The notes beneath the pieces were generated by a model. The model searched no databases. It was not told the origin of the DNA and worked only from the letters and a program-made list of their open reading frames with translations. A program made the position numbers and the translations under genes. Shown one piece after another: positions 181-21,947 of a DNA stretch of 21,947 nucleotides (the first letter of the stretch is position 1; each line of letters begins with the position of its first letter). Where the stretch lies: the NCBI GenBank assembly GCA_903868035.1, contig CAIPTQ010000086.1, positions 1 through 21,947 on the forward strand, given 5' to 3'. This DNA comes from an uncultured Phycisphaerales bacterium (GTDB lineage Bacteria > Planctomycetota > Phycisphaerae > WQYP01).

Positions 181-557
181 TGGAGGCGGAGGGAGTTGAA
201 CCCTCGTCCCGAGGCAGGTTGACGAAAGCCTCTACGTGCGTAGGTCAAATTTTATCTTATGCCGCGCGGCGTCTTAAACCGAACTCCGCGGGCACCAGCT
301 CCTCCTGGGTCTTAGCGCCGGCCCAAGGAACCCTGGCCAACGAGCGGTCTGCTGAAATGACAACTCATCCCATGACACAGACGATCACAGGTGAATCGTG
401 CAGCCAGTATTTAGGCCGCAAGACGGAGGCTTTCGCCCCCGACTGGGAACTTGTAGTTCTCAGTAGCATTTAAGTTTTGCCACACAGTTTTACGACTTGC
501 ATGACAGGTCGGCACGCCACCAGCATCACTACTGTCCGGTCGATACCTGGCGCCCCC
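181..557 (-). ncRNA. ssrA: tmRNA (transfer-messenger RNA)
   Basis: This is a one-piece tmRNA of 377 nt that rescues stalled ribosomes with SmpB and tags the incomplete protein for proteolysis. The 5' end GGGGGCG pairs with the 3' end CGCCTCC over seven base pairs. The third pair is G-U, the alanine identity element charged by AlaRS. The T-arm is GAGGG-TTCAACT-CCCTC and the discriminator is A. No CCA is encoded. The internal reading frame appears to give an 18-residue tag, ATENYKFPVGGESLRLAA, followed by TAA and ending in the usual LAA degron. The resume codon is taken as the GCT after AACTTAAAT, which is an inference. The gene lies at the downstream end of the minus-strand tRNA array, about 260 nt beyond tRNA-Lys(TTT). 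Confidence 0.93.
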
Positions 558-815: not shown

Positions 816-888
816 TGGGCCCGGCAGGAGTTGAACCCGCATCTGTCTCCTTAAAAGGGAGCGACTCTGCCAGTTGAGCTACAGACCC
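816..888 (-). tRNA. tRNA-Lys(TTT)
   Basis: A 73-nt cloverleaf. The acceptor stem GGGTCTG/CGGGCCC pairs with G-U pairs, the discriminator is A, and the D-stem is GCTC/GAGT. The anticodon loop CTTTTAA gives anticodon TTT. The outermost anticodon-stem pair is a G-A mismatch. CCA is not encoded. It is the last tRNA before ssrA in transcription order. Confidence 0.92.
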
Positions 889-903
889 GTGGAACACTGT
901 TGA

Positions 904-977
904 TGGCCCGGGCGGGAGTCGAACCCGCGGGAAGCAGGGTTTAAGCCTGCCGTGTCTGCCGGTTGCACCACCGGGCC
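904..977 (-). tRNA. tRNA-Leu(TAA) with short variable loop
   Basis: A 74-nt cloverleaf with acceptor GGCCCGG/CCGGGCC, A73, D-stem GTG/CAC and T-arm GCGGG-TTCGACT-CCCGC. The anticodon loop CTTAAAC gives TAA, for the UUA codon. The 5' half has the wide D-loop and three-pair D-stem typical of leucine tRNAs. The variable region is only five nucleotides (TTCCC), where bacterial leucine tRNAs normally carry a long arm. CCA is not encoded. The call as leucine rests on anticodon, A73 and the D-arm. Confidence 0.85.
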
Positions 978-982
978 GTGGG

Positions 983-998
983 GATTTTCGATTTTCGA
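983..998. repeat. 7-bp repeat GATTTTC (array facing 1197-1238)
   Basis: Two copies of a T-rich heptamer (ATTTTCG) fill the spacer between tRNA-Leu(TAA) and tRNA-Leu(GAG). They are the reverse complement of the GAAAATC heptamers found at 1197-1238. Confidence 0.7.
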
Positions 999-1006
999 TG
1001 GGGGGA

Positions 1007-1088
1007 TGCTCTCGGCAGGATTCGAACCTGCACGCCCGAAGGCGCGGCCACCTCAAGGCCGTGCGTCTGCCAATTCCGCCACGAGAGC
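1007..1088 (-). tRNA. tRNA-Leu(GAG)
   Basis: An 82-nt class II tRNA with acceptor GCTCTCG/CGAGAGC and A73. The anticodon loop TTGAGGT gives GAG, for CUY codons. The variable arm of 13 nt is a clean hairpin CGCC-TTCG-GGCG with a UUCG tetraloop. It is the only one of the four leucine tRNAs here that keeps the long variable arm. CCA is not encoded. Confidence 0.93.
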
Positions 1089-1093
1089 GCGCT

Positions 1094-1121
1094 GAAACTC
1101 GAAACATGAAACTTGAAACTC
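1094..1121. repeat. 7-bp tandem repeat GAAACTC
   Basis: Four consecutive heptamers (GAAACTC, GAAACAT, GAAACTT, GAAACTC) fill the whole spacer between tRNA-Leu(GAG) and tRNA-Arg(CCG). Confidence 0.85.
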
Positions 1122-1123
1122 GA

Positions 1124-1196
1124 CGATCCCGGCGCGGCTCGAACGCGCAGCCTCCGGCTTCGGAAACCGGCGCTCTTCCAGTTGAGCTACGAGATC
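1124..1196 (-). tRNA. tRNA-Arg(CCG)
   Basis: A 73-nt cloverleaf with acceptor GATCTCG/CGGGATC, discriminator G and D-stem GCTC/GAGC. The anticodon loop TTCCGAA gives CCG. G73 is common in arginine tRNAs. CCA is not encoded. Confidence 0.92.
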
Positions 1197-1238
1197 AAAA
1201 TCAAAAATCATAAATCGAAAATCGAAAATCAAAAATCC
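1197..1238. repeat. 7-bp tandem repeat GAAAATC
   Basis: About six degenerate A-rich heptamers (CAAAAAT, CATAAAT, CGAAAAT and so on) form the spacer between tRNA-Arg(CCG) and tRNA-Arg(TCT). Confidence 0.8.
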
Positions 1239-1242
1239 ACCA

Positions 1243-1315
1243 TGGCCCCGGCAGGACTCGAACCTGCATCAATCCGCTTAGAAGACGGATGCTCTGCCAA
1301 TTGAGCCACGAGGCC
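1243..1315 (-). tRNA. tRNA-Arg(TCT)
   Basis: A 73-nt cloverleaf with acceptor GGCCTCG/CGGGGCC, discriminator A and T-arm GCAGG/CCTGC. The anticodon loop CTTCTAA gives TCT, for AGA and AGG. CCA is not encoded. The plus-strand AAA+ gene region begins immediately upstream of it. Confidence 0.92.
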
Positions 1316-1340
1316 GACGGTCGCAAGCGAACTCACACCC

Positions 1341-1367
1341 TTGCCACCCGCGCCCACCCCCTATAAT
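1341..1367 (+). promoter_or_regulatory. possible promoter for the AAA+ gene
   Basis: A perfect TATAAT lies at 1362-1367, with TTGCCA 15 bp upstream at 1341-1346. The spacing is shorter than the usual 17 bp. The ettA promoter in this window has the same TTGCCA box. It would give a leader of about 245 nt before the AAA+ start codon. Confidence 0.35.
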
Positions 1368-1460
1368 GCATGGAGACAACCCGCACTGGCCGAGCCCGCC
1401 GTCTGGACTCCCAACATAGCTTGGAACTTTGCCGTTGCTGCCGCGTTGGGGGAAATATGA

Positions 1461-1504
1461 AGGAGACCTGCATGCGGCGGCACATTTCCGCCAGGCTCCT
1501 TTTT
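1461..1504 (+). terminator. terminator-like hairpin in the AAA+ leader
   Basis: AGGAG-A-CCTG pairs with CAGG-CTCCT through nine base pairs with one bulged A. There is an inner GCGG/CCGC helix, and TTTTT follows directly. It has the layout of an intrinsic terminator but lies upstream of the gene, so it could be a leader attenuator or the end of a short RNA starting near 1374. Confidence 0.5.
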
Positions 1505-1618
1505 CCTGGCTGACGGCCCTGCATGGCGGGGAGGTCAGTCGCGCCAGCGGTTGGGCAACCGGCGTCCCGCCCCGACGACACCCGCTGGCATACTCTCGTG
1601 GCACTGCCTGGAGCCCTC

Positions 1619-3166
1619 ATGCCTACCGATAGCTTACCCGCCCCCCCAACCGTTCCCCCGGCCTCCCCGCAGGCCCCAGCGAACTCCCTCCCCGTGGTCG
1701 CGGCCATCCAGGGCATCCTCGACACCGGGCGGCCGCTGCTCTACATTCAGACCACCGAAGAGGACCGCGTCATCGGGGTGTTCCGGCGGATCGCCGAAGC
1801 GCGGCGCGGGGACCTGTTCCTGTGGAGCGTGACCGAGGGCCTGCTGCAGAACGGCAAGCCGCTCCCGAGCCAGCCCGAGGGGGCGCGGGGCATCCTGGAT
1901 TTCATCGTGGCGCACGACCAGCCGGGCATTTTCCTGCTCAAGGACTTTCACGAGTTTCTCCACGACTCGGTCGAAATCCGCCGCCGGCTCCGCGACCTGT
2001 ACTACCGCTGCCTGGATACGGGCAAGTTCACGGTGATCTGCGCGCCCACGAAGTACATCCCGGAGGAAATCAACCGCGAGGTCGCCTTCAGCGAACTGCC
2101 CCGGCCCGACCTCAAGGAACTGGAGGAACTGCTGGCGGCCGAGGCGCAAGCCATCACCGGCGGCGCGGCGAACCTGTCCGCGGAGACGATCTACGAGCTC
2201 ACCCGCGCGGTGCAGGGGCTGACGTTCCACGAAGCCCGGCACGCCCTGCGGCGGGTGATGGCCGAGCATGGCCAGCTCGACTCCTCCATCGTGCGGACGC
2301 TGGAACAGGAGAAACAGCAGCTCGTCCGCAAAACGGGCCTGATCGAATACGTCCCCAACACGACCGGCATCGACCAGATCGGCGGGCTCGAGGTGCTCAA
2401 GACGTGGCTGACGCAGCGGCGCGGACTGTTCTTCTCGCGGGAGAGCATCTCCGCGGAGATCGTGCCCAAGGGCCTGCTGCTGATGGGCGTCTCGGGCTGC
2501 GGCAAGAGCCTTTCGGCGCGGGCCGTCGCGAACGTATTTGACCTGCCGCTGTACCGCATCGACATGGTCCATGTGTTCGCGGCCGGGATCAACAACGCCG
2601 AGCGGCTCTTCGCCTCCGCCTGCCGCACCATGGAGGAAGTGTCCCCGGCGGTGGCCTGGTTCGACGAGATCGAAAGCGGAATCTCCCGCGACCACCAGGA
2701 TGACACCGGCGTGCTCGACCGGCTCTTCAGCTACTTCCTGACGTGGATGCAGGAGAAAACCGCCGGGCTGTTCGTCGTGGCGACGGCCAACCGGATCGAC
2801 CTCCTGCCGGCGGAGATGATCCGCAAGGGGCGGTTCGACCAGGTCTTCTTCATCGACCTGCCGGACGCCGACGAGCGGCTGGAGATCTTCAAGATCCACC
2901 TCTCCCGCCGCGGTCTGGACCCGTCGGGAATGCGGCTCAACCTGATCGCGGACCGCGCCGAGGGCTGGACCGGCGCGGAGATCGAGCAGGCGGTGATCGC
3001 GGCCATCATTGCGGCGCGCATCGCCAAGGAACCCGTCAGCGACAAATACATGTTCATGTCGCTCCATCAGATCGTGCCGCTCTCGAAGACCATGAAGGAG
3101 CAGGTGAACCACATCCGCTCCTGGGCGTATGACCGCGCCCTTCGCGCTTCGGTGCGCAAGTTGTGA
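1619..3166 (+). CDS. Ycf46-like AAA+ ATPase
   Basis: A 515-residue AAA+ ATPase that resembles the Ycf46 group of cyanobacteria and plastids. Its cellular role is not well established. The N-terminal part (about residues 25-110) contains LLYIQTTEEDR, similar to the equivalent Ycf46 segment. The ATPase module shows Walker A GVSGCGKS (290-297), Walker B VAWFDEIE (345-352), sensor 1 around N391, the arginine-finger segment MIRKGRFD (400-407) and a sensor-2 WTGAEIEQA stretch. ATG 1619 is preferred over an in-frame ATG at 1523 because GGAG lies 5 nt upstream and the extra N-terminus is low complexity. It is the only plus-strand gene inside the tRNA array, and its stop codon directly abuts the 3' end of tRNA-Gly(TCC) on the other strand. 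Read-through would run antisense across the tRNAs. Confidence 0.85.
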   Translation: MPTDSLPAPPTVPPASPQAPANSLPVVAAIQGILDTGRPLLYIQTTEEDRVIGVFRRIAEARRGDLFLWSVTEGLLQNGKPLPSQPEGARGILDFIVAHDQPGIFLLKDFHEFLHDSVEIRRRLRDLYYRCLDTGKFTVICAPTKYIPEEINREVAFSELPRPDLKELEELLAAEAQAITGGAANLSAETIYELTRAVQGLTFHEARHALRRVMAEHGQLDSSIVRTLEQEKQQLVRKTGLIEYVPNTTGIDQIGGLEVLKTWLTQRRGLFFSRESISAEIVPKGLLLMGVSGCGKSLSARAVANVFDLPLYRIDMVHVFAAGINNAERLFASACRTMEEVSPAVAWFDEIESGISRDHQDDTGVLDRLFSYFLTWMQEKTAGLFVVATANRIDLLPAEMIRKGRFDQVFFIDLPDADERLEIFKIHLSRRGLDPSGMRLNLIADRAEGWTGAEIEQAVIAAIIAARIAKEPVSDKYMFMSLHQIVPLSKTMKEQVNHIRSWAYDRALRASVRKL

Positions 3167-3239
3167 TGCGGCGTGCGGGACTTGAACTCGCAACCTCCTG
3201 GTTGGAAGCCAGGCGCTCCGCCAATTGAGCTAACACCGC
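3167..3239 (-). tRNA. tRNA-Gly(TCC)
   Basis: A 73-nt cloverleaf with acceptor GCGGTGT/ACGCCGC. The anticodon loop CTTCCAA gives TCC, for GGA and GGG. The discriminator is A, unlike the T73 of tRNA-Gly(GCC) nearby. The T-stem GCGAG/CCCGC has one A-C mismatch. CCA is not encoded. Confidence 0.91.
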
Positions 3240-3242
3240 GCG

Positions 3243-3279
3243 GGAATTTTCGATTTTTGATTTTTGATTTTCGATTTTG
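3243..3279. repeat. 7-bp tandem repeat GATTTTT/GATTTTC
   Basis: Five T-rich heptamers form the spacer between tRNA-Gly(TCC) and tRNA-Leu(CAA). They are the same family as 1197-1238, in the opposite orientation. Confidence 0.8.
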
Positions 3280-3285
3280 TTCACG

Positions 3286-3360
3286 TGCTCCCGGCAGGAT
3301 TCGAACCTGCATCAAGCGGTTCTTGAGACCGCCGCGTTTGCCGCCTTACGCCACGGGAGC
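3286..3360 (-). tRNA. tRNA-Leu(CAA) with short variable loop
   Basis: A 75-nt cloverleaf with acceptor GCTCCCG/CGGGAGC, A73 and a leucine-like D-arm (three-pair GCG/CGC stem, 12-nt loop). The anticodon loop CTCAAGA gives CAA, for UUG. The variable region is five nucleotides (TTGAT), so the long leucine arm is missing. CCA is not encoded. Confidence 0.86.
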
Positions 3361-3363
3361 ATA

Positions 3364-3436
3364 AGTGCCCGGCGAGACTTGAACTCGCAACCTCCGCATT
3401 GGCAACGCGGCGTTCTGCCGGTTGAACTACGGGCAC
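3364..3436 (-). tRNA. tRNA-Gly(GCC)
   Basis: A 73-nt cloverleaf with acceptor GTGCCCG/CGGGCAC and T73, the usual bacterial glycine discriminator. The anticodon loop TTGCCAA gives GCC. Only 3 nt separate it from tRNA-Leu(CAA). CCA is not encoded. Confidence 0.92.
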
Positions 3437-3443
3437 GTGGAAA

Positions 3444-3516
3444 AGCCCACACAGGGACTTGAACCCCGAACCTCCTGTTTACGAAACAGGCGCTCTGCCA
3501 GTTGAGCTACGCGGGC
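3444..3516 (-). tRNA. tRNA-Thr(CGT)
   Basis: A 73-nt cloverleaf with acceptor GCCCGCG/TGTGGGC containing two G-U pairs. The anticodon loop TTCGTAA gives CGT, for ACG. The discriminator is T. CCA is not encoded. Confidence 0.91.
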
Positions 3517-3522
3517 GCGTGT

Positions 3523-3547
3523 GATTTTCGATTTTTGATTTTCGATT
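3523..3547. repeat. 7-bp repeat, upstream-side arm of the tRNA-Cys flanking pair
   Basis: GATTTTC/GATTTTT heptamers that are inverted relative to the array at 3655-3684 on the far side of tRNA-Cys. The tRNA therefore sits between two complementary arms. Confidence 0.75.
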
Positions 3548-3561
3548 TGCGTGTTGGAACA

Positions 3562-3646
3562 AGACCGGGACGGGACTCGAACCCGTGCGGGCATGACCTG
3601 CCGGTGGATTTGCAGTCCACTGCCTTCGCCGCTCGGCCACCCGGCC
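3562..3646 (-). tRNA. tRNA-Cys(GCA) with long variable arm
   Basis: An 85-nt tRNA. The acceptor is GGCCGGG/CCCGGTC with a G2-U71 pair, and T73 is the cysteine identity base. The anticodon loop CTGCAAA gives GCA. The D-arm GCC/GGC resembles ordinary bacterial cysteine tRNAs. The variable region is 17 nt (3587-3603) and can form GGCA-GGTCA-TGCC, where cysteine tRNAs normally have 4-6 nt. CCA is not encoded. Confidence 0.88.
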
Positions 3647-3654
3647 AAATTGAA

Positions 3655-3684
3655 TCGGAAATCGAAAATCATAAATCGAAAATC
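3655..3684. repeat. 7-bp repeat GAAAATC, far-side arm of the tRNA-Cys flanking pair
   Basis: Four A-rich heptamers between tRNA-Cys and tRNA-Lys(CTT), reverse-complementary to 3523-3547. Confidence 0.75.
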
Positions 3685-3687
3685 CAC

Positions 3688-3760
3688 TGACCCCGGCAGG
3701 ACTTGAACCTGCAACCTTCCGGGTAAGAACCGGAAGCTCTGCCAGTTGAGCTACGGAGTC
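3688..3760 (-). tRNA. tRNA-Lys(CTT)
   Basis: A 73-nt cloverleaf with acceptor GACTCCG/CGGGGTC, A73 and D-stem GCTC/GAGC. The anticodon loop TTCTTAC gives CTT, for AAG. CCA is not encoded. Confidence 0.92.
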
Positions 3761-3782
3761 GGATCGGTGTGCGGTGGAGAGA

Positions 3783-3855
3783 TAGGATCGGGCGGAGTCG
3801 AACCGCCCACCTCTTCCTTATCAGGGAAGCGCTCTGCCAACTGAGCTACGATCCT
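3783..3855 (-). tRNA. tRNA-Ile(GAT)
   Basis: A 73-nt cloverleaf with acceptor AGGATCG/CGATCCT, A73 and T-arm GGCGG/CCGCC. The anticodon loop CTGATAA gives GAT. It is not next to rRNA genes, where this tRNA is often found in bacteria. CCA is not encoded. Confidence 0.93.
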
Positions 3856-3862
3856 GAATTCT

Positions 3863-3890
3863 GGAAACTCGAAACTCGAAACTTGAAACT
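3863..3890. repeat. 7-bp tandem repeat GAAACTC
   Basis: Four heptamers (GAAACTC twice, a GGAAACT-type start and GAAACTT) form the spacer between tRNA-Ile and the initiator tRNA. Confidence 0.8.
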
Positions 3891-3894
3891 AAAA

Positions 3895-3968
3895 TAGCGG
3901 GAGTGGGATTCGAACCCACGGCACGTGGCTTATGAGACCACGGACATCGACCACTCGTCCATCCCGCG
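3895..3968 (-). tRNA. tRNA-fMet(CAT), initiator
   Basis: A 74-nt tRNA with anticodon loop CTCATAA. Initiator features are the CGCGGG 5' end, a 1-72 mismatch (C1/U72), an A11-U24 pair in the D-stem and A73. The anticodon stem GTGGT/GCCAC keeps G29-C41 and G30-C40, but the third pair is U31-G39, so the usual three G-C pairs become GGU/GCC. An elongator or Ile2 identity is less likely because of the mismatch and A11-U24. CCA is not encoded. Confidence 0.8.
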
Positions 3969-3978
3969 ATATATCCAA

Positions 3979-4050
3979 TAGTGGCGGCAGGAGTCGAACC
4001 TACGCACTGCCGGTTATGAGCCGGCTGCTCTGCCTCTGAGCTACGCCACT
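3979..4050 (-). tRNA. tRNA-Met(CAT), elongator
   Basis: A 72-nt cloverleaf with acceptor AGTGGCG/CGCCACT fully paired, A73 and D-stem GCTC/GAGC. The anticodon stem is GCCGG/CCGGC and the loop CTCATAA gives CAT. It lacks initiator features, so it is elongator Met. A lysidine-modified Ile2 tRNA is the alternative. Confidence 0.85.
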
Positions 4051-4186
4051 GTGAGCGCGCGGTCCTTGGGAGGAAACCGCGGCCACTCCCATCTGAGGAT
4101 CAGAAGCCGGAAGACAGAAGACAGGAGTCAGAGGCGCGGAAAATTCCGGCCTCCAACTTCCTGCTTCTTTGCCCTCGGGCTTGCCT

Positions 4187-4828
4187 TCAGCCCTTCAACT
4201 CCACGTTCCAGTACGCCTCGTCGACAAACTGCGCCCACGAGGCGTGCTGCACGCGGATCAACTGCGCCGGCGTCTTCAACGCCCGCGGCACGCGAATCAA
4301 TTTCATCCGCGCCTCCGCCGGCGTCTTGTCCGCCTTCCGCGAGTTGCACTCGGTGCATGCGCACACCAAATTTTCCCACGTGTCGCCGCCCCCGCGCGAC
4401 TTGGGCACCACGTGGTCCAGCGACAGCTCGCTGGAGGGGTACTTGCACCCGCAATACTGGCACGTGTTGCCGTCGCGGTGGTAGATGTTCCGCCGGTTCA
4501 GCGGCACAAACGGCCCCGAAATCTGCCGGCCCCGGTGCTTCCGATACCGCTGCCGGTCGAACTTCGTCAGCCGCACCACCGTGGGCGCCGCCAGGCGGCC
4601 GCGCACCAGGCCGACCCAGTCATGCCGCTCGCTTTCAAACTCGGACTTCAAATCCGAAAGCTCCCGCCACGACGCCAAATCATACGTCCCCAAGTGTGGA
4701 TCATCTGTGTCCACCACCTCCGCCGCTCCCGTCACCAGCAAGGACAGCGCCCGCCGCACATCAATCACATGAATGGGCGCGAACACCTTGTTCAGCGCCA
4801 GAACCGGATACGAGAGAACCGCCGTCAC
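4187..4828 (-). CDS. HNH endonuclease family protein
   Basis: A 213-residue protein with a C-terminal HNH nuclease domain. A CxxC pair (C123, C126) lies upstream of the LDHVVPKSRGG motif, whose H139 is the presumed general base. ENLVCACTECN (N153, second zinc pair C158/C161) follows. These make the HNH fold with a structural zinc. The N-terminal 110 residues are typical of stand-alone HNH proteins found widely in bacterial chromosomes, whose biological role is mostly unknown. GTG 4828 is chosen because a perfect AAGGAGG lies 5 nt upstream (4834-4840). An upstream ATG at 4858 would bury that site. It lies in the tRNA array in the same direction as the tRNAs, between tRNA-Pro(CGG) and tRNA-Met. 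Confidence 0.85.
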   Translation of the reverse strand: MTAVLSYPVLALNKVFAPIHVIDVRRALSLLVTGAAEVVDTDDPHLGTYDLASWRELSDLKSEFESERHDWVGLVRGRLAAPTVVRLTKFDRQRYRKHRGRQISGPFVPLNRRNIYHRDGNTCQYCGCKYPSSELSLDHVVPKSRGGGDTWENLVCACTECNSRKADKTPAEARMKLIRVPRALKTPAQLIRVQHASWAQFVDEAYWNVELKG

Positions 4829-4833
4829 GGGAA

Positions 4834-4840
4834 CCTCCTT
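4834..4840 (-). promoter_or_regulatory. ribosome binding site of the HNH gene
   Basis: AAGGAGG is complementary to the 16S 3' end and lies 5 nt before the GTG at 4828. It decides the start codon. Confidence 0.7.
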
Positions 4841-4841
4841 T

Positions 4842-4870
4842 CTAGCCCGGCGTGGCAACGCCCGGCAAAA
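4842..4870. repeat. 29-bp dispersed repeat, copy 1
   Basis: Identical over 29 bp to 5947-5975. The core is a near-palindrome (CCGGCGT/ACGCCCGG). It lies just upstream of the HNH gene and resembles small REP-like intergenic elements. Confidence 0.8.
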
Positions 4871-4886
4871 CGCGACTAGCCCGTGT

Positions 4887-4966
4887 GTGGTCAGTTGCCA
4901 GTGGCCAGTTGTCGATGAACATCACCGACGAACTCCTACTGACCACTGACAACTAACCACGGACCA
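4887..4966. repeat. inverted pair of 7-bp repeats (AGTGGTC/AGTTGCC family)
   Basis: Heptamers AGTTGCC, AGTGGCC and AGTTGTC at 4887-4913 face their reverse complements at 4941-4960, with 17 of 20 bases complementary. The arms are separated by about 34 nt. Confidence 0.7.
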
Positions 4967-4972
4967 CTCCAT

Positions 4973-5046
4973 TCAGGCTGGGCGGACTTGAACCGCCGGC
5001 CTCTTGCGCCCGAGGCAAGCGCTCTGCCATGCTGAGCTACAGCCTG
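4973..5046 (-). tRNA. tRNA-Pro(CGG)
   Basis: A 74-nt cloverleaf with acceptor CAGGCTG/CAGCCTG (C1-G72, characteristic of bacterial proline tRNAs) and A73. The anticodon loop CTCGGGC gives CGG. CCA is not encoded. Confidence 0.92.
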
Positions 5047-5047
5047 G

Positions 5048-5147
<100 letters not shown>

Positions 5148-5153
5148 TCCACG

Positions 5154-5227
5154 GGAGATCGACGGGACTCGAACCCGCATCCCCGGCGTCACAGGCCGGT
5201 GCCTTCGCCGCTTAGGCCACGATCTCC
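5154..5227 (-). tRNA. tRNA-His(GTG)
   Basis: The acceptor is GAGATCG/CGATCTC with an encoded extra G-1 opposite C73, the histidine identity pair. The anticodon loop CTGTGAC gives GTG. Coordinates include G-1 (position 5227). CCA is not encoded. Confidence 0.93.
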
Positions 5228-5280
5228 ATCTGTCTTCTGACTTCTTGCTTCTTGCTTCTTGCTTCTTGCTTCTGTCTTCT
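5228..5280. repeat. 7-bp tandem repeat CTTCTTG
   Basis: At least five pyrimidine-rich heptamers (CTTCTTG, then CTTCTGT) fill the spacer between tRNA-Pro(TGG) and tRNA-His. Related copies occur at 5485-5507, and a diverged facing pair at 4102-4170. Confidence 0.8.
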
Positions 5281-5285
5281 CCCAT

Positions 5286-5358
5286 TCAGGCAGACAGGAC
5301 TCGAACCTGCATGCTCCTGGTCCCAAACCAGGCGATCCGCCGCTTGATCCACTGCCTG
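5286..5358 (-). tRNA. tRNA-Pro(TGG)
   Basis: A 73-nt cloverleaf with acceptor CAGGCAG/CTGCCTG, A73 and D-stem GATC/GATC. The anticodon loop TTTGGGA gives TGG. CCA is not encoded. Confidence 0.92.
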
Positions 5359-5377
5359 TGATTTCCAGCAGCATTCA

Positions 5378-5476
5378 CCACGGAGCCACGGAGACACGGA
5401 GAGAAATGAATTTGAGGTGTGCCGTTGTGACACGTATCAACGTTTTTCCCCCACTCTCTCCGTGCCTCCGTGTCTT
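5378..5476. repeat. inverted CACGGAG repeat pair
   Basis: Three CACGGAG words at 5378-5403 face complementary CTCCGTG words at 5454-5474 across about 50 nt. The motif is different from the other 7-bp families but is arranged the same way, in the spacer between tRNA-Trp and tRNA-Pro(TGG). Confidence 0.65.
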
Positions 5477-5514
5477 CTGGATTCTTGCTTCTGTCTTCTT
5501 GCTTCACCCACAAG

Positions 5515-5587
5515 CACGGCGGGCGGGAGTCGAACCCGCATGGACCGGTTTTGGAGACCGGGGCTCAGCCTATCGAGCATCCGCCGT
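5515..5587 (-). tRNA. tRNA-Trp(CCA)
   Basis: A 73-nt cloverleaf with acceptor ACGGCGG/CCGCCGT and G73, the tryptophan identity base. The anticodon loop CTCCAAA gives CCA. No CCA tail is encoded. Confidence 0.93.
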
Positions 5588-5600
5588 ATATAACCGTGGC

Positions 5601-5617
5601 ATCGGCGTCCCGCCGAT
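5601..5617. repeat. 17-bp palindrome in spacer
   Basis: A perfect 7-bp inverted repeat ATCGGCG/CGCCGAT with loop TCC lies between tRNA-Ala and tRNA-Trp. It resembles the GGCACGC/GCGTGCC palindrome at 6215. Confidence 0.6.
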
Positions 5618-5622
5618 GTTCA

Positions 5623-5696
5623 TGGAGCGCGAGGGATTCGAACCCTCAACCTCCTGCATGCAAAGCAGGCGCTCTGCCAATTAGAGCTACCGCCCC
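5623..5696 (-). tRNA. tRNA-Ala(TGC)
   Basis: A 74-nt cloverleaf with acceptor GGGGCGG/GCGCTCC, including the alanine-specific G3-U70 pair and a G7-G66 mismatch, and A73. The anticodon loop TTTGCAT gives TGC. CCA is not encoded. Confidence 0.92.
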
Positions 5697-5739
5697 GGTT
5701 GAGTCTTGAGGTTCCAGTGTCATGTTTCAAGTAGTTCTC

Positions 5740-5795
5740 GAACCTTGAACCTTGAACCTTGAACCTTGAACCTTGAAACTCGAAACTCGAAACTC
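5740..5795. repeat. 7-bp tandem repeat GAACCTT then GAAACTC
   Basis: Five exact GAACCTT heptamers followed without a break by three GAAACTC heptamers. The switch of repeat unit in the same 7-bp register suggests one array diversified in place. Confidence 0.88.
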
Positions 5796-5798
5796 GTA

Positions 5799-5871
5799 TT
5801 GGGTCGGCAGGATTCGAACCTGCAACTGCCGGATTCAAAGTCCGATGTGCTACCATTTGCACCACAACCCA
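5799..5871 (-). tRNA. tRNA-Gln(TTG)
   Basis: A 73-nt cloverleaf with acceptor TGGGTTG/CGACCCA and A73. The anticodon loop CTTTGAA gives TTG. The U1-A72 start is typical of bacterial glutamine tRNAs. CCA is not encoded. Confidence 0.92.
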
Positions 5872-5873
5872 CG

Positions 5874-5946
5874 CGACCGCGGCAGGGCTCGAACCTGCAA
5901 CCTCCGGCTTCGTAGACCAGCACTCTTCCAGTTGAGCTACGCGGTC
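5874..5946 (-). tRNA. tRNA-Arg(ACG)
   Basis: A 73-nt cloverleaf with acceptor GACCGCG/CGCGGTC and G73. The anticodon loop CTACGAA gives ACG. A34 would be deaminated to inosine by TadA to read CGN codons. CCA is not encoded. Confidence 0.92.
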
Positions 5947-5975
5947 CTAGCCCGGCGTGGCAACGCCCGGCAAAA
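5947..5975. repeat. 29-bp dispersed repeat, copy 2
   Basis: Identical to 4842-4870. It abuts the 5' end of tRNA-Arg(ACG). Confidence 0.8.
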
Positions 5976-6013
5976 TGTGGCCCCCGACACAACGCCCCAA
6001 TCACCGCCCAAAG

Positions 6014-6085
6014 CTGCAAGGGTGGGAATCGAACCCACAACCCTCGCCTTAACAGGGCGCCGCACTACCGTTGTGCTACCTTGCA
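6014..6085 (-). tRNA. tRNA-Asn(GTT)
   Basis: A 72-nt cloverleaf with acceptor TGCAAGG/CCTTGCA, G73 and D-stem GCAC/GTGC. The anticodon loop CTGTTAA gives GTT. CCA is not encoded. Confidence 0.93.
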
Positions 6086-6088
6086 ATT

Positions 6089-6114
6089 GAAACTCGAAAC
6101 CCGAAACTCGAAAC
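6089..6114. repeat. 7-bp tandem repeat GAAACTC
   Basis: Four heptamers (GAAACTC, GAAACCC, GAAACTC, GAAACTA) form the spacer between tRNA-Asn and tRNA-Ser. Confidence 0.8.
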
Positions 6115-6121
6115 TAAAAAG

Positions 6122-6206
6122 CGGAGGGTGAGGGAGTCGAACCCCCAAGGCTGTCACACTCGACGGTTTTCGGGACCGCTGCCGTCGCCAATCGGCTTGA
6201 CCCTCC
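6122..6206 (-). tRNA. tRNA-Ser(CGA), C33 variant
   Basis: An 85-nt class II tRNA with acceptor GGAGGGT/ACCCTCC, G73 (serine discriminator) and a variable region of about 17 nt. The anticodon stem CGGT/ACCG encloses the loop CCCGAAA, which gives CGA. Position 33 is C instead of the near-universal U. CCA is not encoded. Confidence 0.87.
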
Positions 6207-6214
6207 AAGGTAGC

Positions 6215-6231
6215 AGGCACGCTCCGCGTGC
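6215..6231. repeat. GGCACGC/GCGTGCC palindrome
   Basis: A perfect 7-bp inverted repeat with loop TCC in the spacer upstream of tRNA-Ser. It has the same 7-3-7 geometry as 5601-5617. Confidence 0.6.
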
Positions 6232-6295
6232 CGTCCGTGCGGCGGACGGGCTTTGCCTCACCCGCCCGCCGCACCGTCCTAAGGTAAAACCCTTC

Positions 6296-6376
6296 TCGAA
6301 ACTCGAAACTCGAAACTTGAAACTCGGAACTTGAAGTTCTGTTCTTGATACTGGAAACTTGAAACTCGAAACTCGC
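6296..6376. repeat. 7-bp repeat array GAAACTC/GAAACTT
   Basis: About ten heptamers, some diverged, with a short reverse-oriented stretch in the middle (GAAGTTC and neighbours). This spacer lies between tRNA-Ser and tRNA-Glu. Confidence 0.78.
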
Positions 6377-6379
6377 CAC

Positions 6380-6450
6380 CAGACCCAGCGGGAATCGAAC
6401 CCGCGCCGACGGCTTGAAGGGCCACCGTGCTCCCATTACACCATGGGTCC
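6380..6450 (-). tRNA. tRNA-Glu(TTC), C33 variant
   Basis: A 71-nt cloverleaf with acceptor GGACCCA/TGGGTCT (terminal G-U pair), discriminator G and D-stem GTG-type. The anticodon stem GGC/GCC encloses the loop CCTTCAA, which gives TTC. Position 33 is C rather than U. CCA is not encoded. Confidence 0.87.
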
Positions 6451-6455
6451 ATGAG

Positions 6456-6533
6456 CGTAATTGGTAACTGGTAATTGGTAATTGGTAATTCGGCGCACAC
6501 ACCTCCAATTACCAATTACCATTTACCAATTAC
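6456..6533. repeat. large inverted array of 7-bp repeat GGTAATT
   Basis: Four GGTAATT-type heptamers at 6456-6489 face four complementary AATTACC-type heptamers at 6507-6533. The arms are about 27-30 nt with few mismatches, around a G/C-richer loop. The arrangement predicts a long hairpin upstream of tRNA-Glu. Confidence 0.8.
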
Positions 6534-6597
6534 CTGTAAATTGGCTATTCACTTGTCAAAGACCCGCCGGCGCTTGCCGCCCTGTTCTGACCACCGA

Positions 6598-6626
6598 CAC
6601 GAGGCCCTGTCATCGGGGGCCTCGTG
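6598..6626. repeat. 10-bp perfect inverted repeat
   Basis: CACGAGGCCC pairs with GGGCCTCGTG across a 9-nt loop, between tRNA-Leu(CAG) and tRNA-Glu. No T-run follows on either strand, so a processing or structural hairpin is more likely than a terminator. Confidence 0.6.
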
Positions 6627-6647
6627 GCCGGATCGATCAAATTGAAG

Positions 6648-6723
6648 TGGCTCGGGTGGGATTCGAACCCACAGGGGCCTGTTTCTGAGACAGGCGTGTC
6701 TGCCAAAGTTGCACCACCGAGCC
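6648..6723 (-). tRNA. tRNA-Leu(CAG) with short variable loop
   Basis: A 76-nt cloverleaf with acceptor GGCTCGG/CCGAGCC, A73, D-stem GTG/CAC and a 13-nt D-loop. The anticodon loop CTCAGAA gives CAG, for CUG. The variable region is five nucleotides (CCCCT), so the long arm is absent. It is the first tRNA of the array in transcription order. CCA is not encoded. Confidence 0.86.
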
Positions 6724-7320
6724 AAAGGCCATGCCCAAGCCAAAAGCTGGGGCAGGAATTTCGGGATGCGCTGGGGCGAAAATAATTGGGAAAATTCGAC
6801 GGCCAGCGCGGGATCGGGGGGGCTTCCCCCGCACTGGCGGAGGAAGGTTACCTATTCACTCGCTCGCTACCAAAATCCTGTATCGAGCCTGGATAGCGTT
6901 TGGGTGATAGGCTGCCGCCCATGATGGCGGCCGCGGCGAGGTCCGCGAGGGGGGGGGTCGTCGGGGCAATCAGGGTCTGGGGCCCTAACTGCGGATGTCC
7001 CCGGCGCAACCGTGCCGCGCAGCGCCCTTGCGGGGCTGTGGGCGTTTCGAAGTTGGGCCATCGGGACATCATGGAAGGTCATCCTTTTCAGGCGAAGCAA
7101 GCTTCGCACATGAGAAGACACGCGAACAGGCTCCGCGTGAGCCGCAGCCTTGGTCAGGCCGCCAAAAGACTATACGCACAACCCGTGCCAAACGTGCGGG
7201 CTTTCACAATAAATTCCCACAAAATCCCGCAAGGTGCCAGAAACACAGCATTTGCAGCCATCAGCCCAAAACCGCCGCATGCCGCCTTGGTGCCGATAAC
7301 CCACTCGATTACGCGCTTTT

Positions 7321-7338
7321 GGGATAAATGTTTATCCC
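7321..7338. promoter_or_regulatory. 8-bp-arm palindrome, possible operator
   Basis: GGGATAAA and TTTATCCC flank a 2-nt centre. The geometry suits a dimeric regulator or a small hairpin. No known operator consensus was recognised. Confidence 0.3.
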
Positions 7339-7348
7339 GCAAGATAGC

Positions 7349-7393
7349 TATGTTCTCATATCTCATATCTCAAATCTCAAATCTCAAATCTCA
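7349..7393. repeat. 7-bp tandem repeat ATCTCAA
   Basis: Six heptamers (two ending in TA, then four exact) upstream of ettA. They show that the 7-bp spacer style extends beyond the tRNA array. Confidence 0.82.
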
Positions 7394-7512
7394 AATTCCA
7401 CACATCCGTCTCTGTGTTCTCTGTGCTCTCGGTGTTCTCTGTGTCGAAATCGTCGTGTCGTCGTGGTTCAATTTGGTTGCGCTTCGCCGCTTACGCTACG
7501 GGTTCAGTTTAG

Positions 7513-7540
7513 TTGCCAGCCTGCCGGGGCGCGGTATAAG
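7513..7540 (+). promoter_or_regulatory. probable ettA promoter
   Basis: TTGCCA (7513-7518) and TATAAG (7535-7540) are separated by 16 bp, close to the sigma-70 consensus. Initiation near 7547 would leave a short leader of about 22 nt before the ATG at 7569. Confidence 0.5.
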
Positions 7541-7568
7541 CTTCAAACTCACTTATTGGAGCATACGC

Positions 7569-9257
<1,689 letters not shown>

Positions 9258-9353
9258 TGCGTTTTGCTCGGGCGTACGTAATTCGACCGCTAGCTCCTTA
9301 GATCGCCGTTACTAAATACATCATGCATTTGGCTGCTGGTAGAGTCAAGGATA

Positions 9354-9389
9354 ACGAAATCGAAAATCAAAAATCAAAAATCGAAAATC
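9354..9389. repeat. 7-bp tandem repeat GAAAATC
   Basis: Five A-rich heptamers just downstream of the fabZ-like stop codon, the same family as in the tRNA spacers. Confidence 0.78.
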
Positions 9390-18059: not shown

Positions 18060-19682
<1,623 letters not shown>

Positions 19683-20120: not shown

Positions 20121-20519
20121 CTACCCATTAAGGGCGACGCGTTGGACGCCTACAAATCTCGAAGCTTGCGTGTCGGGCTTCCCTTTGTCATCCATGCAGG
20201 CCTCAATGGCCTGTTTGATTCGCTTTAGCAGCGAGGGCATGGTTTTGGCCTGGCTATGGCATCCTTGAAGTTCAGCCACAGTCCCGTAAAGCCATCCATC
20301 AACATCCTCCGAAATAATCACGGTGTATTCACGCAATCTCATGGCCTGTCCGGCGCCCCCGTGCGCCAGCCTGCGGGAACGACTCAAGCGGCGGGCCGCC
20401 TCGATTCCCGTCTGGCCTCGCCCAAGGACGCGCACCCGGGAAAAATCAATTTCCTTGGGCGGCTCTTCGGCCAGTTCAGCTTCGCTGAACGTAACTTCTC
20501 TATGCTTTACGCTGCTCAT
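20121..20519 (-). CDS. HicB-like antitoxin with extra N-terminus
   Basis: A 132-residue protein as read from ATG 20519. Residues 60-132 are a HicB-type antitoxin domain (MRLREYTVIISEDVDGW, ELQGCHSQAKT, FVGVQRV), which in HicAB systems binds and neutralises the RNase HicA. No hicA is present. Residues 1-59 (with TFSEAELAEEPPKEIDFSRVRVLGRG) resemble the short antitoxins that accompany BrnT-like toxins and then run into an Arg-rich stretch. This suggests two antitoxins joined in one frame. A second start at ATG 20342 would give HicB alone (73 residues). The 20519 start overlaps the end of brnT by 20 nt, which points to translational coupling. Confidence 0.65.
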   Translation of the reverse strand: MSSVKHREVTFSEAELAEEPPKEIDFSRVRVLGRGQTGIEAARRLSRSRRLAHGGAGQAMRLREYTVIISEDVDGWLYGTVAELQGCHSQAKTMPSLLKRIKQAIEACMDDKGKPDTQASRFVGVQRVALNG

Positions 20520-20787
20520 AGTCCCTGATTTCCGCTTTGGTCGCGTTTCTTGCCGAGATAATTCGAATAATTTCCTCATATTCGCCACGATAGCAATAGG
20601 TGACGACTAAAACACGCCCGCGTTCTGAGATTCCAATCTCGCGAAATCGTTCCTCGCTGGCGGAATGAACAGCGTCTTCGATCGTAAGGGATCGTGGATC
20701 GGTGAAAACGCCCGCCGCTTCGTCGAAGCTGACTCCATGCTTCTTGCGATTAGTCGTGGCTTTGATGCTATCCCATTCAAGATTCAC
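20500..20787 (-). CDS. brnT: BrnT-family toxin
   Basis: A 95-residue protein matching the BrnT family, a RelE-like ribonuclease toxin that cleaves RNA and blocks translation. The visible family pattern is LEWDSIKATTNRKKHGVSFDEAAGVF (split here only by position), then HSASEERF, GRVLVVTY and RIISARNATKAEIRDYE. It starts with GTG 20787, with GAGG 8 nt upstream. It is the first gene of a two-gene unit inserted between groEL copy 2 (48 nt upstream) and groES. BrnT is normally paired with BrnA; here the overlapping partner is HicB-like. Confidence 0.82.
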   Translation of the reverse strand: MNLEWDSIKATTNRKKHGVSFDEAAGVFTDPRSLTIEDAVHSASEERFREIGISERGRVLVVTYCYRGEYEEIIRIISARNATKAEIRDYEQRKA

Positions 20788-20835: not shown

Positions 20836-21947
20836 TCACATCATGCCATCCATGCCGCCCATGCCGCCCATTCCACCCATGCCGCCGCCCATACCGCCCA
20901 TGCCGCCGCCGCCCATGCCGCCGGGGCCACCGGCATCCTTGGGCTTGGGCTTTTCGACGATGATGGCGTCGGTGGTGAGGAGGAGGGTGGCGACGCTGGC
21001 GGCGTTTTGGAGGGCGCTGCGTTCGACCTTGGTCGGGGTGATGATGCCGGCCTTGACCATATCCTGTTCATAATCGAGTGTCAGGGCGTTAAAGCCAAAA
21101 TTGCCTTTGCCCCCGAGAACTTTCTTCACGATGACTGCTCCTTCTTCGCCGGCATTTTCCGAGATGCACCGCAGGGGTTCCTGCAGGGCGCGGCGGACGA
21201 TTTCGATGCCGGTCTGTTCGTCGTCGCTGTCGGTTTTAAGGTCGTCCAAGACCACGAGGCTCCGCAGCAGCGACACTCCGCCGCCGGGGAGGATGCCTTC
21301 TTCCACGGCCGCGCGGGTGGCATGCAACGCATCCTCGACGCGGGCCTTTTTCTCTTTCATTTCGGATTCGGTGGCCGCGCCGACGTTGATCTGGGCGACG
21401 CCGCCGGCGAGTTTGGCGAGGCGTTCCTGGAGTTTTTCGCGGTCGTAGTCGCTGGTGGTGATGCCGATCTCGCGGCGGATTTGTTCGATGCGGGCCTGGA
21501 TGGCGGTGCTCTTGCCGGCGCCTTCGATGATGGTGGTGTTGTCGGAGTCGATCTGAATCTTCTTGGCCTGGCCGAGGTCGGCGACGGTGACGCGGTCAAG
21601 GTCCACGCCGAGATCCTTCATGATGGCGCGGCCGCCGGTGAGGGTGGCGATGTCCTCGAGCATGGCCTTGCGGCGGTCGCCGTAGCCGGGGGCCTTGACG
21701 GCGGCGACCTGGAGGACGCCGCGGAGCTTATTGACGACCAGCGTGGCGAGGGCTTCGCCGTCGATGTCCTCGGCGATGATGAGCAGGGGGCGCTTGGCGC
21801 TCTGGATTTTTTCGAGGATGGGGACGAGCTTGCTGGCGGAGGAAATCTTGTCTTCGAAAATGAGGATGTAGGCTTTTTCGAGTTCGACGGTCATGGCGTC
21901 CTGGTTGGTGATGAAGTTGGGGGTGAGGAAGCCGCGGTCGAACTGCA
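20836..21947 (-). CDS. groEL: GroEL, 60-kDa chaperonin (copy 2, 5' end outside window)
   Basis: A partial chaperonin open to the right edge of the window. About 370 residues are visible, starting in the apical domain ([16 protein letters not shown]) and running to the C-terminus. It includes [28 protein letters not shown] and [12 protein letters not shown]. The C-terminus is a long Gly-Met tail (MGG repeats ending MDGMM), as in canonical GroEL. It differs from copy 1 at many positions and is not a recent duplicate. Roughly the first 190 residues are missing. The ATG at 21894 is internal and is not the start. Confidence 0.95.

Follow-up and report, generated by a model that had tools for sequence, protein, structure and literature searches.

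The long variable arm is treated by textbooks as a fixed trait of bacterial tRNA-Leu. How, then, does a bacterium come to carry three leucine tRNA genes that lack it? The genes in question lie in a stretch of 21,947 nucleotides (contig CAIPTQ010000086.1; the whole stretch is referred to here as the window), within an array of 25 tRNA genes. An initial annotation of this DNA had proposed that a consistent loss of the arm implies a leucyl-tRNA synthetase (LeuRS) that recognizes class-I-shaped tRNAs. The explanation that we favor, with a probability of about two in three, is that an accessory array lies next to a transfer-messenger RNA (tmRNA) gene in a Phycisphaerae-like planctomycete and that its leucine tRNAs are short-armed reserves charged by an ordinary LeuRS. 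The array most likely belongs with those carried by phages, plasmids, and some chromosomes. Because the same tRNAs turn up often in tRNA clusters of bacterial viruses and plasmids, the short-armed leucine tRNAs look like portable spare parts and not like the sign of an unusual leucine enzyme.

Leucine tRNAs with five-nucleotide variable loops

Four leucine tRNA genes of the window were called by both ARAGORN and Rfam (RF00005), all on the minus strand: Leu(TAA) at 904 to 977, Leu(GAG) at 1007 to 1088, Leu(CAA) at 3286 to 3360 (3285 to 3360 in ARAGORN), and Leu(CAG) at 6648 to 6723 (6647 to 6723 in ARAGORN). The variable region was measured directly as the distance from the anticodon to the T-loop, and the cloverleaf drawings were inspected too. 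It is 5 nt long in Leu(TAA), Leu(CAA), and Leu(CAG), which are therefore class I in form, without the long arm that defines class II, and 13 nt long in Leu(GAG), a class II tRNA whose arm is a CGCC-UUCG-GGCG hairpin. The initial annotation had described both the short loops and the UUCG hairpin, and the two programs and the direct measurement agree with it. A class-I-leucine pattern matched exactly the three short-armed genes in the window, and the mean number of matches in 100 dinucleotide shuffles was 0.00.

Apart from the arm, the genes are leucine-like, as had been stated, with leucine anticodons and with A73, A14, A15, G18G19, and A20a in all four (A20a of Leu(CAA) was read by eye). The leucine identity set of Escherichia coli consists of A73, the A15-U48 pair, G18G19, and A20a; this bacterial set is complete in Leu(CAA), Leu(CAG), and Leu(GAG).

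Short-armed leucine tRNAs recur in viral, plasmid, and planctomycete arrays

A search of IMG/VR with the class-I-leucine pattern returned at least 120 stretches, and 80 of them were surveyed for tRNA content. All 80 loci carry tRNAs, 1,032 in total. A second viral sample of 80 loci, one of them common to the first, was selected on tRNA-Asn. The class I form was found there in 43 of 77 measurable leucine tRNAs versus 0 of 57 serine and 0 of 26 tyrosine tRNAs (2 Leu, 3 Ser, and 2 Tyr were dropped as unmeasurable); with near-duplicates taken into account, the 43 genes amount to 35 distinct sequences from 27 loci. In the 120 pattern-selected loci listed, a sample biased towards class I Leu, the counts were 187/250 for Leu, 1/96 for Ser, and 2/39 for Tyr (2 Leu, 2 Ser, and no Tyr dropped). 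Seryl- and tyrosyl-tRNA synthetases (SerRS and TyrRS) need the long arm of their tRNAs, and the near absence of arm loss from serine and tyrosine tRNAs fits this need. The difference between viral Leu (43/77) and Ser or Tyr (none) can be read as a natural experiment that tells which synthetases require the arm.

The 43 class I leucine tRNAs of the Asn-selected sample have A73 and U48 throughout (43/43 each), A14 and A15 in all 40 that were parsed, and A20a in 39/40; viral class II leucine tRNAs keep the identity elements to a similar extent. Other class I isotypes do not keep them, with A73 in 325/600 and U48 in 219/600. A second class I leucine form, with a remodelled D-arm (often CCCAA..GG.AGAGG), was noticed in the viral loci L313 to L389. 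It keeps A73, A15-U48, and mostly A20a and is missed by the pattern used for the genome survey described below.

Five named records carry the short-armed form in tRNA arrays. Because they were reached by tRNA queries (the Nonomuraea record via several window tRNAs, the Mycolicibacterium records via window Leu(TAA), and the phages via viral class I Leu), they illustrate the form and give no frequency. A Nonomuraea plasmid has class I Leu(AAG) and Leu(CAG) and class II Leu(CAA); two Mycolicibacterium plasmids have class I Leu(CAG) and Leu(TAA) and class II Leu(CAA); Citrobacter phage Ci1 has class I Leu(CAA) and Leu(TAG) and class II Leu(TAA); and Rhodococcus phage Dorin has class I Leu(TAA) and Leu(CAA). 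Both forms are present in four of the five arrays, the fifth having class I only, and an HNH gene lies inside three of them (both Mycolicibacterium plasmids and Ci1). A sixth record, a Pseudomonas plasmid, has one tRNA and no array.

In bacterial genomes the survey pattern was found in 1/397 genomes of the class that contains Phycisphaerae, 1/392 Planctomycetota (the two samples overlap in part), and 0/46 genomes of other groups. These counts are lower bounds because the sensitivity of the pattern is low: of the class I viral leucine tRNAs it recovers 2 of 43 where the loci were selected on Asn and 115 of 187 where they were selected on the pattern itself. None of 34 class II and none of 71 housekeeping tRNAs matched it.

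The two planctomycete genomes that turned out to have short-armed leucine tRNAs are drafts, designated G284 and G522. The array of G284 (L113, 9227 to 9720, contig C100) consists of six tRNAs, namely, short-armed leucine tRNAs for all five leucine anticodons and a tRNA-Tyr, and the genome has five class II leucine genes elsewhere, one per anticodon (all 48 Rfam matches were retrieved). In G522 an array of 14 genes in the ARAGORN calls (some of its tRNAs were called by Rfam and not by ARAGORN) lies at a contig end and includes short-armed Leu(CAG), and class II Leu(CAG), Leu(TAG), Leu(GAG), and Leu(TAA) are found elsewhere; an 85-nt Leu(CAA) in this array was excluded from arm measurement. The initial annotation had named other full-length class II genes for the three anticodons, with the short-armed genes unexpressed, as an observation that would speak against its reading, and for the shared anticodons both G284 and G522 have such class II genes. 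In both genomes the short-armed leucine tRNAs are an addition to class II leucine tRNAs. By analogy, the organism of the window would have an ordinary class II leucine set elsewhere in its genome. As side observations, the array tRNA-Tyr of G284 is unlike the other tRNA-Tyr of that genome, and no obvious mobile genes were seen by eye among the listed open reading frames (ORFs) of the array contig.

The adapted LeuRS was not borne out. Literature sources are cited here by PMC number, and what is taken from them refers to the parts of each text that were available. Variants of E. coli tRNALeu without the long arm are still active, and E. coli LeuRS is independent of the arm (PMC9976931). Viral contigs often contain short-armed leucine tRNAs, and the plasmid arrays examined have them too; in these settings they presumably have to work with the host LeuRS. 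A special or second LeuRS was considered and rejected: five planctomycete genomes (G284 and four others, G001 to G004) have one LeuRS each, of the ordinary bacterial family, including G284 with its short-armed tRNAs for every leucine anticodon. Since the identity elements are kept and E. coli LeuRS does not depend on the arm, no special LeuRS is implied. For the window genes, charging by an ordinary LeuRS is the expected outcome, because they keep A73, A14, A15, G18G19, and A20a, as well as U48 in all but Leu(TAA).

The short-armed tRNAs would have arisen from class II leucine tRNAs by loss of the variable arm. Bacterial LeuRS would accept this loss, since what it reads is A73 and the elbow formed by the D-loop and positions 15 and 48, not the arm; SerRS and TyrRS, in contrast, cannot do without theirs. 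The normal LeuRS would attach leucine to the resulting tRNAs, which may act as a reserve when tRNAs of the main pool are damaged or in short supply. Two benefits are conceivable by analogy. One is a reserve under stress, as in the cyanobacterium Anabaena, whose tRNA array is induced by translational stress (PMC10272220). The other is protection from nucleases that attack variable loops: retron-Eco7 and Septu both cleave the variable loop of tRNA-Tyr, and the tRNA-Tyr of phage T5 withstands retron-Eco7 because of its own variable loop (PMC13096335).

It is possible, although we hold this only tentatively, that arm loss is a general adaptation of mobile arrays. Shedding the single arm that is dispensable for LeuRS would make leucine tRNAs on phages, plasmids, and islands invisible to host defense nucleases or toxins that attack class II variable arms and so provide a cleavage-proof supply; the chromosomal arrays (that of the window and the five-anticodon set of G284) might then be domesticated copies kept against tRNA-cleaving attack. 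The rival that survives best also accepts an accessory array but regards the arm loss as mere relaxed constraint, tolerated by LeuRS without selection for the loss and with little function for the array. Accessory tRNAs are divergent in general, and arm loss hardly occurs outside the one class II isotype for which the bacterial synthetase can do without the arm (PMC9976931), as this explanation would have it. However, the identity elements of the viral class I leucine tRNAs are almost perfectly kept, and therefore these tRNAs are under selection; G284, moreover, retains a short-armed gene for every leucine anticodon. Relaxed constraint as the whole explanation seems less likely than not. The statement in the initial annotation that the short arms are not random decay is supported.

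An array of accessory-type tRNAs

The 25 tRNA genes called by ARAGORN lie at 816 to 6723, all on the minus strand, in 5.9 kb (4.2 genes per kb). Rfam confirmed 24 of them, together with the tmRNA, in the first 6.7 kb on the same strand; the exception is tRNA-Ser(CGA) (6121 to 6206), which keeps a class II arm of 16 nt and is an ARAGORN call that Rfam, at its cut-off, did not list. A tRNA array unit has been defined as at least 20 tRNAs at a density of at least 2 per kb; several such arrays contain a tmRNA, and an endonuclease, often HNH, is their most widespread coding sequence (PMC5966550). The number and density of the window genes fall within this definition. HNH and tmRNA genes, which are frequent but not obligatory companions, are both present, although the tmRNA may be the host's own. 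The tmRNA gene (181 to 557, minus strand; ARAGORN and Rfam), with the tag ATENYKFPVGGESLRLAA, is directly downstream of the array.

The HNH endonuclease gene (4187 to 4858, minus strand; Pfam HNH_5/HNH) lies inside the array. Its product matched the viral HNH family phrog_16726 in a PHROGs search (3e-31) and is 49% identical over 79 amino acids to the HNH protein inside a Mycolicibacterium plasmid tRNA array. An AAA ATPase gene inside the array (1523 to 3166) is on the opposite, plus strand; it matched phrog_8638, a viral family of unknown function, over nearly its full length (5e-99). The closest relatives of the ATPase are in four Planctomycetota/Phycisphaerae records (L001 to L004; 55 to 63% identity), and others are in records titled Aminicenantes, Acidobacteria, Dadabacteria, Desulfuromonadales, and actinobacteria. 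Synteny via this gene was discarded as a guide: none of the four closest records has an array beside it, with one tRNA in L001 and none in L002 to L004. The spacers of the window array contain repeats of two types, one of the GAAACTCGAAACT type (3864 to 6361) and one of the CGATTTT/GATTTT type (986 to 9377). The array itself, its HNH gene, the adjoining tmRNA, a long-armed tRNA-Cys, and C48 of Leu(TAA) had been missed in the earlier reading.

Divergence from housekeeping isoacceptors is a further criterion for array units. It was assessed by asking whether the nearest planctomycete housekeeping tRNA carries the same amino acid, with 43 tRNAs of G284 and 28 of G522 as the reference. G284 provides no His, and G522 no Ile, His, Phe, Asn, or Gln outside its array; isotypes not in the reference (His in the window) and Stop calls were dropped, which reduced the window from 25 to 24 tRNAs, other phyla from 53 to 50, the plasmid arrays from 62 to 60, and random viral tRNAs from 150 to 145. 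The amino acid agreed for 10/24 tRNAs of the window array compared to 47/50 housekeeping tRNAs of other phyla (Fisher P = 1.7e-6), which are those lying near AAA homologues and include no Leu genes. Agreement was also high for housekeeping tRNAs of G001 to G004 (28/30), a baseline of best-scoring loci only that is biased upward, and it was 2/6 for the G284 array, 3/14 for the G522 array, 23/60 for plasmid arrays, and 49/145 for viral tRNAs. The housekeeping class II baseline for leucine came from G284 (five genes) and G522 (four). The tRNAs of the window array are thus of the accessory type by sequence. Raw identity to housekeeping tRNAs (0.737 versus 0.785) was dropped as a measure because its separation was poor, and the nearest-neighbor test was used instead. 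The best identity to a housekeeping tRNA of the same amino acid was lower in the window (0.756) than in other-phylum housekeeping tRNAs (0.805; P = 6e-5).

Several observations weigh against the accessory reading. The same-amino-acid identity of the window tRNAs is higher than that of viral tRNAs (0.703; P = 5e-5) and marginally higher than that of plasmid arrays (0.727; P = 0.05). The tmRNA is host-like, the RLAA at the end of its tag being shared by 3 of 10 planctomycete relatives, so that its link with the array may be no more than adjacency. Spacing is looser than in the plasmid arrays compared, and the spacers carry repeats, of which only the CGATTTT/GATTTT type also occurs outside the array within the window. 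No integrase, phage structural gene, or transfer gene was detected among 14 window proteins searched against Pfam and 10 searched against PHROGs, the remaining ORFs and the flanks beyond the window being outside the scope of these searches. Window Leu(TAA) has an A15-C48 pair and so is without U48, whereas position 48 is U in the other three leucine genes; by BLAST it matched only three plasmid records and no named phage. Finally, the host is seen through the 21,947-nt window, and a main leucine set elsewhere would lie outside that view.

Some of these observations would be expected if the array were the main tRNA set of the organism and its leucine tRNAs had truly lost the arm in this lineage. 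A host-like tmRNA beside the array and a repeat type shared with DNA outside it both fit such a set, as do the array anticodons in the ARAGORN calls, of which only CAT is duplicated, and the presence of an initiator-like tRNA-Met(CAT) (3894 to 3969, minus strand) with a mismatch at 1-72, seen in the cloverleaf and by direct reading. The outcome of the nearest-neighbor test (10/24 versus 47/50) is difficult to reconcile with it. Rfam scores point the same way, with a mean of 61.05 (n = 22) in the window compared to 68.6 (n = 34) for class I housekeeping tRNAs of G284 (P = 1.1e-4). The array lacks Phe, Tyr, Val, Asp, and many isoacceptors, and therefore other tRNA genes must exist. In addition, tRNA genes are mostly dispersed in G284 (full list) and, among the matches listed, in G001 to G004, and both planctomycetes with class I leucine tRNAs also have class II ones. 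A main tRNA set is thus an improbable identity for the array.

It is very unlikely that the short-armed tRNAs carry a different amino acid or have a role outside translation; a class I shape with a leucine anticodon is an unusual pair, but the leucine anticodons throughout and the presence of A73, A14, A15, G18G19, and A20a in all four window genes argue for leucine. A gene-calling or assembly artefact is most improbable, as ARAGORN and Rfam concur on the four leucine genes and named phages and plasmids have tRNAs of the same form.

Related systems and neighboring genes

Arrays of tRNA genes, their HNH and tmRNA companions, and anti-defense roles of phage tRNAs are already known. The array units of mycobacteria and of their plasmids and phages (PMC5966550) resemble the window in tRNA number and density (20 or more, with at least 2 per kb), in their HNH genes, and, in several cases, in having a tmRNA, and the two Mycolicibacterium plasmids share with it class I Leu(CAG) and Leu(TAA), although their Leu(CAA) is class II. 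The window differs from the mycobacterial arrays in its planctomycete origin, looser spacers, AAA ATPase gene, long-armed tRNA-Cys, and host-like tmRNA. In Mycobacterium avium, array tRNAs differ from the chromosomal ones in the D, anticodon, and variable arms (PMC12803027). The trn operon of Anabaena PCC 7120 has 26 tRNA genes beside a dispersed housekeeping set, a likeness of array make-up with the leucine arms outside the comparison, but it is on a megaplasmid and is silent until translational stress (PMC10272220). Citrobacter phage Ci1 is similar in its 20 tRNAs, HNH homing endonuclease, and class I Leu(CAA) and Leu(TAG); its array is in a phage genome, however, with many small annotated genes between the tRNAs. 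Phage T5 likewise provides a mobile tRNA with an altered variable loop (PMC13096335), but the tRNA is Tyr, not Leu, and resistance is experimental for T5 and only proposed for the window. Mammalian mitochondrial tRNA-Leu also lacks the long arm but is served by a separate mitochondrial LeuRS (PMC9976931).

No description of systematic arm loss in mobile leucine tRNAs was found in open-access PMC articles (subscription journals and supplementary files were outside the scope), nor is it described in the available portions of PMC7609411, PMC5966550, PMC12803027, PMC10264068, PMC13015707, PMC11555353, PMC13096335, and PMC10272220. Short-armed leucine tRNAs could serve as a marker for accessory tRNA arrays and as a direct test case for tRNA-based evasion of antiphage defense.

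Other tRNAs of the window array have unusual features. tRNA-Cys(GCA) (3562 to 3646, minus strand) has a 17-nt variable arm and U73; the main tRNA-Cys of G284 is class I, with 74 nt, and 3 of 24 measurable tRNA-Cys genes in the Asn-selected viral sample were scored as long-armed. tRNA-Ala (5623 to 5696) has a G-G mismatch at 7-66, and tRNA-Gly(TCC) (3167 to 3239) has A73 and a T-stem mismatch, each a possible sign of relaxed constraint.

Every flanking gene that could be identified is bacterial. There is a chaperone block with two Cpn60 genes, GrpE, and DnaJ, and there are genes for a FabA-like enzyme, an ABC-F-like ATPase, and an SNF2 helicase. The first Cpn60 was identified by its match to planctomycete GroEL. 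Among the 392 Planctomycetota genomes, the nearest relatives of the window GroEL are 66 to 68% identical, and the ten best are also within the 397-genome class sample; among the records of that class is one titled Phycisphaerae (G002, from L002). Judging from this protein and the AAA ATPase, the organism is Phycisphaerae-like, and because the best identity is only 66 to 68%, it is without a close relative in the 392-genome sample. The two Cpn60 (GroEL) genes, at 18060 to 19673 and 20836 to 21894, lie near DnaJ and GrpE, with a GroES-like ORF (judged by eye) between them, and the second ends in a Gly/Met-rich tail. Also between the two chaperonin genes, within 20121 to 20787, is a gene for a BrnT-type ribonuclease toxin (Pfam PF04365), which is adjoined by a short gene with weak UPF0150-like and HicB-like matches.

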